Shown here piece by piece: positions 35,893-39,476 of a stretch of 42,073 nt of DNA (position 1 is its first letter; each line of letters starts with the position of its first letter). A program made the position numbers and the translations under genes. Source of the stretch: Acidobacteriota bacterium (GTDB lineage: Bacteria > Acidobacteriota > Terriglobia > Acidiferrales > UBA7541); contig JACQDH010000252.1 in NCBI GenBank assembly GCA_016201215.1, forward strand, positions 1-42,073, read 5' to 3'. A model generated the notes under the pieces. It did not search any database, was not told the DNA's origin, and saw only the letters and a list, made by a program, of their open reading frames with translations.

Positions 35893-36069
35893 ATGAAAAC
35901 GAGCAGCCATGCGCTGCGTAGCGCCGCTATCCTCGCGGCGGTTGTCGGCTGTGCCCCGAGGTCGTCTGGCATTCCGAGGGAAGCACGGACTTGTTCCGAT
36001 CCGAGATTGGCCAGAGGGAAATGCGGGGGCGAGCCCGCAGGCCCGCCCCTGCGAGAATGCAGTGACTAG
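35893..36069 (+). pseudogene. Possible lipoprotein gene fragment
   Basis: The frame from the ATG at 35893 begins MKTSSHALRSAAILAAVVGC, a good lipoprotein signal with the lipobox V-V-G-C, but after that it turns into Arg/Gly/Pro-rich sequence and ends after 58 codons. A shift of one base after about codon 21 would continue as CPEVVWHSEGSTDLFRSEIG, which reads more like protein, then stops. The last part covers a GC-rich hairpin. It may be a lipoprotein gene broken by a frameshift, or chance. No strong ribosome binding site. Confidence 0.25.
36023..36052. repeat. GC-rich hairpin (REP-like)
   Basis: GGGGCG (36026-36031) pairs with CGCCCC (36044-36049), an inner GCC with GGC around a four-base loop, and GCG with TGC outside. 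It lies just downstream of the second glnA 3' end on the minus strand and could mark the former transcript end. No T-run. Confidence 0.45.
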
Positions 36070-36089
36070 ATGTCGTAATAAAGCTGGAA
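36066..36089 (-). repeat. Second copy of the last codons of glnA
   Basis: The minus strand reads TTC CAG CTT TAT TAC GAC ATC TAG, i.e. FQLYYDI and stop, identical in protein to the end of glnA at 38067-38090. 21 of 24 bases match and all three differences are synonymous or stop-for-stop. Similarity ends directly upstream (GFL instead of PYE). It is the left border of the island of small genes, either a remnant of a second glnA or a displaced original 3' end. Confidence 0.65.
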
Positions 36090-36215
36090 TAGAAAACCGG
36101 ATTGACAGCGCGTAACTTACAGAAAACACTTACGCAGGATTCGATAAAACCGGTCAAACGGGCTGTCTTCCTGCCAAATTCCTGCGAAAAATCCAAGGGC
36201 CAGCGGCGCTTTTTA

Positions 36216-36488
36216 TCACGCCTGCCGAATCTCCGTTGCCTGCCCACCTGCGTTCAAATTTGCAAGCCAAGTAAACGCGCTACTCGGAATTTGCGCCGAG
36301 GAATCACACAACAGCACAACAGGTTTCGGGGTGGTTCCGATACCCGTAGTGTTCAAATGCATTACTCGCTCGTGTAGGTAGCTGTCCACGGCCTCGCCTT
36401 GTCGGTCACCGAAAGGGCGCACATCGAGCGTTATCGTCGTCGCGTCTGCTGTCCGCACTGCTGTAGCGTTGAATTCGTTCATGTCCAC
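36216..36488 (-). CDS. Small unrecognised protein, island gene 1
   Basis: A short protein of 88-90 residues (MNEFNATAVRTADATTITLD...), beginning either at the GTG at 36486-36488 or at the ATG two codons later. GGAGGT lies nine bases before the GTG, at the proper distance, so the GTG is preferred. The sequence has alternating hydrophobic strands (TTITLDVRPFGD, KPVVLLCDSS) and no signal peptide or membrane helix. LHERVMHLNT suggests a helix between them. I recognise no family. The promoter with TGGTAGAAT is about 25 bases upstream. It is the last of four small genes that all carry the same kind of promoter and is less GC-rich than the chromosome around it. Confidence 0.5.
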   Translation of the reverse strand: MDMNEFNATAVRTADATTITLDVRPFGDRQGEAVDSYLHERVMHLNTTGIGTTPKPVVLLCDSSAQIPSSAFTWLANLNAGGQATEIRQA

Positions 36489-36511
36489 GGCTGGGTACCT
36501 CCGTGCGGCGG

Positions 36512-36520
36512 ATTCTACCA
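36512..36520 (-). promoter_or_regulatory. Island promoter 1 (TGGTAGAAT)
   Basis: Extended -10 within GCGTGGTAGAATCCGCCGC. It lies 23 bases after the stop of island gene 2 and is followed by GGAGG and the island gene 1 start. There is no -35 at the normal distance. Confidence 0.6.
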
Positions 36521-36539
36521 CGCCCGGCCCCGCCTTTTT

Positions 36540-36902
36540 CTAACGGCTGCTTGCCGGTGGGTTCGTTGGGGCCGCTGATTGAGGCTTGCCGTCTACATAA
36601 TACTGTTGCGCGGGACAAGCGGGGTATCCGGGGTATCTCTTCACCGTGCATCTCTCTTTATTCAGATTGTCGAAGAAAAGTCCGTGTTGGATATCGTCGC
36701 TTGTAGGGTACTTCTGTTCTAATCGCCAACCGTTGAAATGGTCTCTATCCCACTGCGCCTGTGCTTGCGCCCGTGCTTTCCTTTGTGGGCCATTTACAAG
36801 AGCGTCGTAGCCGCTGTAGACCAGCACGCAGATTCCTAAGAACACCCACCAGATAATCATGACAGGGAGCGGAACGTTCGTCCGGTAGTAGTGCCTTGCC
36901 AT
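36540..36902 (-). CDS. Small single-span membrane protein, island gene 2
   Basis: A 120-residue protein with one N-terminal membrane helix (VPLPVMIIWWVFLGICVLVY, residues about 10-29) and a hydrophilic C-terminal domain. The positively charged residues before the helix (ARHYYR) suggest the N-terminus is inside and the rest outside, although the RKARAQAQAQWDRDH stretch right after is also charged, so the topology is unsure. Two cysteines (CTVKRYPGYPAC) near residue 90-100 could form a disulphide if it is outside. The last 15 residues are Pro/Ala/Ser-rich. No family recognised. The ATG at 36900-36902 follows CGGGGCCG. It has its own promoter (TGGTAGAAT) and is the third gene read in the island. 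Confidence 0.55.
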   Translation of the reverse strand: MARHYYRTNVPLPVMIIWWVFLGICVLVYSGYDALVNGPQRKARAQAQAQWDRDHFNGWRLEQKYPTSDDIQHGLFFDNLNKERCTVKRYPGYPACPAQQYYVDGKPQSAAPTNPPASSR

Positions 36903-36923
36903 ATTTCGGCCCCGTAGCGCGGG

Positions 36924-36932
36924 ATTCTACCA
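36924..36932 (-). promoter_or_regulatory. Island promoter 2 (TGGTAGAAT)
   Basis: Extended -10 within GCGTGGTAGAATCCCGCGC, 27 bases after the stop of island gene 3 and 21 bases before the ATG of island gene 2. No -35 visible; the upstream part is a GC run. Confidence 0.6.
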
Positions 36933-36956
36933 CGCACGGCCCCGGCGCGCCCGCAG

Positions 36957-37205
36957 CTACAGCACGCCCGCCAAGAAATCAACCATGCGCCCTTTCAGGG
37001 ATTCTTTTTGACGTTCGACTTCCTGTTGTAATCGCAGTTCCGGCAATGGCGGCGTTTCCCGCGCGACCAGCAACACCCATTCCTCCTTCAATCCACGAGC
37101 TGTTTCGATAGTCTCTGAATCAGCGGATGGCCTCTCGGCAATCTTCCCGCACAGTACAGCTAGTTCCGTCAAATCCCTACGTTCAAGTTCCTGTTTCGGC
37201 GGCAT
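36957..37205 (-). CDS. Small helical protein, island gene 3
   Basis: An 82-residue acidic-basic helical protein (MPPKQELERRDLTELAVLCG...). There is no signal or membrane segment; two long helices are likely (residues 5-50 and 56-80, the second with EVERQKESLKGRMVDFL). The ATG at 37203-37205 is chosen because AAGGGGAG lies just before it and the shared promoter lies just before that. A longer version beginning at 37277 would include the promoter in its coding part and is therefore unlikely. No family recognised. The helical charge pattern suggests self-association or protein binding, a guess. Confidence 0.55.
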   Translation of the reverse strand: MPPKQELERRDLTELAVLCGKIAERPSADSETIETARGLKEEWVLLVARETPPLPELRLQQEVERQKESLKGRMVDFLAGVL

Positions 37206-37224
37206 GGCTCCCCTTGTGGCGCGG

Positions 37225-37233
37225 ATTCTATCA
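37225..37233 (-). promoter_or_regulatory. Island promoter 3 (TGATAGAAT)
   Basis: Extended -10 within GCGTGATAGAATCCGCGCC, 19 bases before the ATG of island gene 3, with AAGGGGAG between. It is the only one of the four with A instead of G between TG and the hexamer. Confidence 0.6.
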
Positions 37234-37425
37234 CGCGCCCAGCGGCGGAACCGTGAAGTAGCAATGGCCGGGCGCATCCGGCACGGGACTGGCCTTCGGG
37301 CTGGCCCTGTTTCATTTTCCGGCCAGTGGCACTATAGCTCTAACCGGCATGTTGGCGTAGGCTTCAAGGCAGCGGGACGCGGTGGCGGTTGCACGCCAAC
37401 ACTCGGCGCGATTTGAACCGCCCCA

Positions 37426-37938
37426 TCACTGACTCTCTTCGGGCAGAATGAATGCTTCAATTTCGGCTCGCACATCCGTTCCAAAACGTCGGGTTGCAAT
37501 GACCGAATACCCCACGATCTCTGTTCGGCTTGTTGCCTCGTCTCCTACCGCGCTCACTTCTAAACCCAACACGGAATTCCCTGCAAGGCTCCGGGCATCA
37601 ACCACCATATCGGGAGCAGAATCTAACTTGGGCAAAACATTCGCCAGTCTGCAAACTGGCCAGCCGATAGTCCAGCAACCCGACCGACTGGTCACGAGCG
37701 CGGGCGGCGTGTGGAACAGCTTCATAGGCTCAAAATCTCCTGTCGGCCCCCCAGTCCATTTGGCATAGCTCCCACCGATCTTGATGTGGTACTGGCCCGA
37801 AGCATGGTAAGAACCGTGTGCTTCTGGCGTGCTTATGTCGGAATAGTTCACGTAGATATTTCCATCCTTGATGCACACGTCGAATGCTTTTACGAGGCCA
37901 GTCGCCACCTGAATCCCAACGACGCATTTCTTTTCCAT
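37426..37938 (-). CDS. Unrecognised 170-residue protein, island gene 4
   Basis: A 170-residue protein beginning MEKKCVVGIQVATGLVKAFD. It appears beta-rich, with strands such as GQYHIKIGGSYAKWTGGP, MVVDARSLAGNSVLGLEVSA and TEIVGYSVIATRRFG, and Gly/Tyr-rich turns. No signal peptide or membrane helix. Four cysteines are present but in no recognised pattern. I do not recognise the family. The -10 box ends seven bases before the ATG, and the only bases between are CCGCCGC, so the message should be leaderless. It is the first gene of the island read after the glnA terminator, whose T-run stands directly upstream of the promoter. Base composition is visibly lower in GC than glnA. Confidence 0.55.
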   Translation of the reverse strand: MEKKCVVGIQVATGLVKAFDVCIKDGNIYVNYSDISTPEAHGSYHASGQYHIKIGGSYAKWTGGPTGDFEPMKLFHTPPALVTSRSGCWTIGWPVCRLANVLPKLDSAPDMVVDARSLAGNSVLGLEVSAVGDEATSRTEIVGYSVIATRRFGTDVRAEIEAFILPEESQ

Positions 37939-37945
37939 GCGGCGG

Positions 37946-37954
37946 ATTCTACCA
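37946..37954 (-). promoter_or_regulatory. Island promoter 4 (TGGTAGAAT, leaderless)
   Basis: Extended -10 within CGTGGTAGAATCCGCCGCATG. The ATG of island gene 4 begins seven bases after the hexamer, so the transcript should start at or next to it. Confidence 0.6.
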
Positions 37955-37977
37955 CGGCGCGCCTACGGCAAAACAAA

Positions 37978-38005
37978 AGGGCCGGAACCTTTCGGCCCCG
38001 GCCCT
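37978..38005 (-). terminator. Intrinsic terminator of glnA
   Basis: On the minus strand AGGGCCGG pairs with CCGGCCCT, the stem continues with GCC and GGT around a GAAA loop, and it is followed by TTTGTTTTG. It is about 60 bases after the glnA stop. This is a standard rho-independent terminator. Confidence 0.85.
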
Positions 38006-38017
38006 ATACTAAAAGCA

Positions 38018-38049
38018 GATCCCTCGGTCGCGTTGCTCCCTCGGGATAA
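38018..38049. repeat. REP-like inverted repeat
   Basis: ATCCCTCGGTCG and CCCTCGGGAT form an imperfect inverted repeat around CGTTGCT. Sequences of the form 'gatccctcggtcgc...ctccctcgggat' are familiar to me as dispersed intergenic repeats in many bacterial genomes; only one copy is in this window. Confidence 0.4.
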
Positions 38050-38066
38050 CGATCCTAGTCGGATCG

Positions 38067-38069
<3 letters not shown>
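38047..38069. repeat. Perfect 9-bp inverted repeat overlapping the glnA stop codon
   Basis: TAACGATCC (38047-38055) and GGATCGTTA (38061-38069) are exact reverse complements around the five bases TAGTC. The right arm includes the glnA stop. It can fold as an mRNA hairpin; it also has the form of a recombinase core site (two arms around a short spacer), which fits the idea of an insertion at this place. Confidence 0.6.

Positions 38070-39476
<1,407 letters not shown>

Follow-up and report, generated by a model that had tools for sequence, protein, structure and literature searches.

A probable integrase-less islet at the 3′ end of glnA with four small genes, each preceded by an extended −10 element

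Four small leftward genes in a 42,073-nt stretch of an Acidobacteriota genome (the window) are each preceded by nearly the same short sequence, which raises the question of how unrelated genes came to share it and how they are expressed. The reading that we favor, at a rough probability of 0.78, is that they are the independently promoted cargo of a small islet that lacks an integrase and was inserted site-specifically at the 3′ end of glnA.

Four sequence blocks and the genes behind them

The first-pass annotation of the window had placed a repeated block at 36.51, 36.92, 37.22 and 37.95 kb, each copy before a small leftward gene. All four were found on the minus strand, with the consensus (G/C)CGTG(G/A)TAGAATCC and each preceding one small gene unrelated to the others. 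The blocks and the genes (P1 to P4) are as follows.

36510-36523, minus strand: promoter block 1, GCGTGGTAGAATCC, extended −10
36922-36935, minus strand: promoter block 2, GCGTGGTAGAATCC, exactly as block 1
37223-37236, minus strand: promoter block 3, GCGTGATAGAATCC, variant start TGATAGAAT
37944-37957, minus strand: promoter block 4, CCGTGGTAGAATCC, variant start CCGTGG
36216-36488, minus strand: P1, ORF of 90 aa from a GTG start (88 aa from the ATG at 36482)
36540-36902, minus strand: P2, ORF of 120 aa with an N-terminal membrane span, orphan
36957-37205, minus strand: P3, ORF of 82 aa, charged, probably helical
37426-37938, minus strand: P4, ORF of 170 aa, beta-rich N-terminus in a low-confidence model, orphan

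Two copies (37223-37236 and 37944-37957) deviate from the 14-mer originally described, rather than one. With up to three mismatches, the block pattern was matched nine times in the window versus 3.2 times in shuffled sequence, and the best four matches were blocks 1 to 4. The extended −10 sequence TGNTANAAT (TGnTAnAAT) occurred five times on the two strands of the window against 0.77 expected, four of these in the blocks, and GTGRTAGAATCC had 0 occurrences in 2000 shuffles of the islet. The description of the blocks as an extended −10 of the TGnTAGAAT type with no −35 was borne out: this type is present in all four, and a search for a −35 partner of the four blocks found none. They thus have the sequence features of a −35-less extended −10 sigma-70 promoter (TGnTANNNT, no −35). 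A search of the whole draft genome (3.29 Mb, 80% complete, 268 contigs) recovered exact CGTGRTAGAATCC four times, in each case as one of blocks 1 to 4. Copies with one mismatch numbered six elsewhere in the genome, versus two matches for a reversed control pattern.

Start codons lie 7 nt (P4), 19 nt (P3), 21 nt (P2) and 23 nt (P1) beyond the −10 hexamer. P4 is probably leaderless, since its start lies so close to the hexamer; leaderless genes have been linked to a −10-like signal about 12 nt upstream (PMC3160421). The common sequence extends past the −10 as GTGGTAGAATCCGCCGC in two of the four blocks, with GGAGG for one. The blocks had also been described as lying outside the reading frames. 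For block 1 this holds only if the GTG at 36488, which is preceded by the Shine-Dalgarno sequence CGGAGG, is chosen as the start of P1; the P1 frame is open through the block (ORF 36216-36521).

The structure models of P1 (predicted beta-alpha-beta-alpha, low confidence, pLDDT 58) and P4 (pLDDT 34), made without an alignment, are too poor for a fold search and do not contradict the earlier descriptions ‘strand-helix’ and ‘beta-rich’. No convincing homologs of P1, P2 or P4 were found in the searches made, which for P4 covered 250 class genomes, viral contigs and phages and for P2 covered sources other than the class genomes. P1 is nearly an orphan; in G122 a 289-aa frame matches it weakly, at 32%, with its C-terminus. 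Assignment of P2 to DUF2523 was rejected; the match is below the curated cut-off and covers the membrane span only. The suggestion of a defence or phage island was not upheld, as none of P1 to P4 had a PADLOC match, no PHROG match of a cargo protein was better than E = 0.04 and no Pfam match was convincing.

The tight packing of small genes on one strand, with the same sequence at each start, could also suggest a piece of a phage early region whose start-site promoter is repeated. The start-associated sequences (SAS) of cluster K mycobacteriophages form a short asymmetric repeat that immediately precedes many unrelated small genes at their starts and is all but missing elsewhere in the host genome (PMC3203893), and the islet block is likewise a short sequence repeated before unrelated small genes and rare in the rest of the genome. 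SAS, however, occupy the ribosome-binding position and contain AGGAG (PMC3203893), whereas the islet repeat is an extended −10 common to chromosomal genes of relatives. The viral stretches retrieved contain the block at most once each, and no viral relatives of P2, P3 or P4 were found, P1 having only a 22-residue partial viral match. A phage early region is therefore highly improbable.

A second glnA end and the borders of the islet

A repeat search showed the glnA 3′ end to be present again on the far side of the four genes. The features at the borders are listed from the glnA side.

38067-39476: glnA ORF
38068-38090, minus strand: resident glnA 3′ end, last codons and most of the stop codon, att-like side 1
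38011-38067, no strand assigned: REP-like dispersed intergenic repeat (GATCCCTCGGTCGCGTTGCTCCCTCGGGAT...), directly after glnA
37978-38005, minus strand: intrinsic terminator between glnA and P4, 12-pair stem with a TTTGTTTT tail
36165-36197, plus strand: short direct repeats TTCCTGCC-AAA-TTCCTGCG, possible integrase arm sites
36090-36126, plus strand: left end of the islet, putative integrase core-site flank, ...CCGGATTGACAGCGCGTAACTTACAGAAAA
36067-36089, minus strand: displaced second glnA 3′ end, TTC CAG CTT TAT TAC GAC ATC TA, att-like side 2

The direct repeat formed by 36067-36089 and 38068-38090 is 23 nt long and 91% identical. Its displaced copy lies ∼2.0 kb beyond the real glnA end, with all four cargo genes between the copies; it is where the glnA-end pattern matches this genome a second time. 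Minus-strand translation of either copy gives FQLYYDI-stop, with the synonymous differences TAC/TAT, ATT/ATC and TAA/TAG. The GC content of the islet is about 0.54-0.60 versus 0.65-0.70 in the flanks, and GC3 is 0.55-0.60 in the islet genes compared with 0.86 in glnA and 0.83 in glnE.

We propose that the islet spans about 36067-38067 (2.0 kb) and would have been inserted at the glnA 3′ end by a tyrosine recombinase that is now elsewhere or lost. A crossover in the last glnA codons would have let the islet supply the functional end of the gene while the original end was shifted 2 kb towards glnE. Synonymous differences in the displaced end are expected when the att sequence of another host replaces the end of a gene. 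The window contains no integrase, so the islet would at best be a non-autonomous or decayed integrative element; eight Phage_integrase matches lie elsewhere in the genome, none of them tied to the glnA site. A point against the islet is that the repeat is just 23 bp. The first-pass proposal that the genes were acquired together stands in outline, given the low GC and GC3 and the single pair of flanking repeats, of which acquisition as one piece is the simplest reading; it leaves room for stepwise build-up before or after the insertion.

The terminator at 37978-38005 would stop read-through from glnA and would set the cargo, four short genes on one strand, apart from it. Similar hairpins occur at loci of two relatives, G008 and G020. 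The direct repeats at 36165-36197 are matched at 88% over 33 nt in G008:C118, and G020 has analogous TTTTATGCC repeats at the equivalent position. The REP-like repeat is scattered over unrelated positions, in several copies, in the genomes of G003, G004, G016, G029 and others.

The 189-nt spacer between P4 and P3 (37237-37425) is strongly structured as RNA (−74 kcal/mol) and contains GGCGGTTCAAATCGCGCC, which resembles a fragment of a tRNA T-arm; the spacer is possibly the scar of an older insertion. An integron cassette array was considered and rejected. Two of the spacers are very short, and the one long spacer has no GTTRRRY or RYYYAAC attC core site.

The same site in other Acidobacteriota

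We also compared the glnA-glnE interval among relatives, all Acidobacteriota. From the glnA stop to the glnE start it measures 159 nt in G024 and 361 nt in G011, compared with 2276 nt here. Both of these relatives have empty sites with no second glnA end; their intergenic DNA has diverged so far that an alignment was obtained at the glnE start only. Several other relatives have a long gap with no recognisable second glnA end, so insertions of other kinds may also be taken up here.

In G020, which belongs to another genus, a 1.2-kb insertion carrying a methyltransferase gene lies between glnA and a second glnA end. The left end of this insertion is 82% identical to window positions 36066-36126 over 61 nt, while the likeness at the right end is partly that of a dispersed repeat. 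In G008, of the same genus as G020, a displaced glnA end adjoins an islet-like stretch containing a mini-gene with the same promoter block. Insertions have occurred at this site independently in that genus.

Of 399 class genomes, 8 contain the motif at the left end, GGATTGAYAGCGCGTAACTTA (20-21 nt). Displaced sequence resembling a tRNA T-arm precedes it in both G105 and G120. G036 has the motif about 60 nt away from where a Phage_integrase gene, broken into two frames, ends. From the motif beside displaced tRNA ends and an integrase gene, together with the likeness to G020, we infer insertion by a tyrosine recombinase. An integrase-bearing version of the glnA element was not found in the 399 class genomes by means of the end motif, and a full-text literature search of partial coverage gave no report of glnA as an integration site.

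The islet resembles the tyrosine-recombinase islands and islets located at tRNA-gene or protein-gene 3′ ends in its duplicated host-gene end with synonymous differences, its foreign composition, its variable cargo at one hotspot and its conserved end sequence. It differs from them in being merely 2 kb long, in having no integrase and in its target, glnA. In kind it is an ordinary mobile-DNA insertion, a site-specific islet whose integrase is missing, at an unusual gene. The 3′ ends of glnA are thus added places to check for islets.

The promoter type in the family and its use

Using GTGRTAGAATYCGCSGC with one mismatch allowed, we obtained 133 matches in 89 family genomes, compared with 13 for the reversed pattern (our count). 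Downstream lie both core genes (pyrF, rnhB, a larB-like gene and an MBL-fold hydrolase, named by eye from the sequence) and small genes that could not be placed. Four blocks (TGATAGAAT) precede unrelated small ORFs within 3 kb of G050 (L051:3341-6240), one of them encoding a DUF6988 protein, and two precede small unrelated genes in G043. Judged by these matches, the block appears to be a lineage-typical extended −10 promoter that is concentrated in small-gene groups and not private to them. A scan of contigs for the block pattern was set aside; the matches listed appeared to be largely due to chance and came from all phyla.

A common family promoter would also fit a native chromosome. The four genes would then be resident in the glnA-glnE gap, whose width is highly variable, and would evolve fast and use an ordinary promoter of the lineage; the second glnA end would be due to chance or partial duplication. 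Yet the repeat begins exactly at glnA codons and continues into sequence conserved with the insertion of another genus and with elements at tRNA sites. The composition of the islet is also low in GC and GC3, extended −10s are rare across the surrounding 42 kb, and G001, of the same genus, has no ortholog of P1 or P4. We regard a native origin as very unlikely.

For the inserted islet, each gene would have its own −35-less extended −10 (TGRTAGAAT) and a leader of about 0-15 nt, and the housekeeping sigma factor would make each transcript from its own start, with read-through from the preceding gene possible. The first-pass view that these genes are transcribed independently and not as an operon is consistent with a block for each gene and with the similar arrays in G050 and G043; separate transcription, like promoter activity, is here something we infer from sequence. 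Insertion at a specific site downstream of a core metabolic gene, each cargo gene arriving with a minimal promoter already in place, would be a route by which small orphan genes enter and become expressed in Acidobacteriota. TGRTAGAATCCGCC is a candidate promoter for this phylum, which has few genetic tools.

Prophage moron genes are single genes with their own promoter and terminator. The islet is alike in having a promoter for each small gene, and here too a terminator parts it from the preceding gene, but no phage genes surround it and there is one clear terminator for four genes. A moron-like, stepwise build-up would have single genes with their leaders exchanged by homologous recombination at the common promoter-leader, the glnA repeat recording one event among several. 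The P1 leader is indeed matched over 35-43 nt, Shine-Dalgarno included, before unrelated ORFs in three genera (G029, E = 2.9e-6; G035, E = 2.6e-5; G043), and in G008 two loci share a mini-gene that has this promoter. The P3-P2 and P2-P1 spacers contain about 20 nt before the block, so that the promoters are nearly the sole non-coding DNA there. On the other hand, the block also precedes core genes, and homologs of P3 in G044, G109, G057, G118 and G008 do not have it immediately upstream; block and gene therefore do not move as one unit, and the block is no private mark of cargo. Stepwise build-up is unlikely on this evidence. A broader version would make the promoter-leader a standard expression module that receives one unrelated small gene or another by recombination across the genera of the family. 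Such a leader-based cassette exchange, different from integrons, seems to us distinctly improbable.

The P3 homologs are 56% identical in G044, 45% in G109, 43% in G057 and 38% in G008, with a partial match of 63% in G118. By these matches P3 is a member of a real, undescribed family of small proteins that recurs in related genomes. A 1.9-kb stretch that includes a P3 match (L334, L335) is letter-identical in G008 and in G365, a genome of another family, probably because one of the two drafts was binned wrongly. At two loci of P3 homologs (L330:815-1195 and L331:530-946), Rap1a-type immunity genes (Pfam PF18602) are located within about 1 kb.
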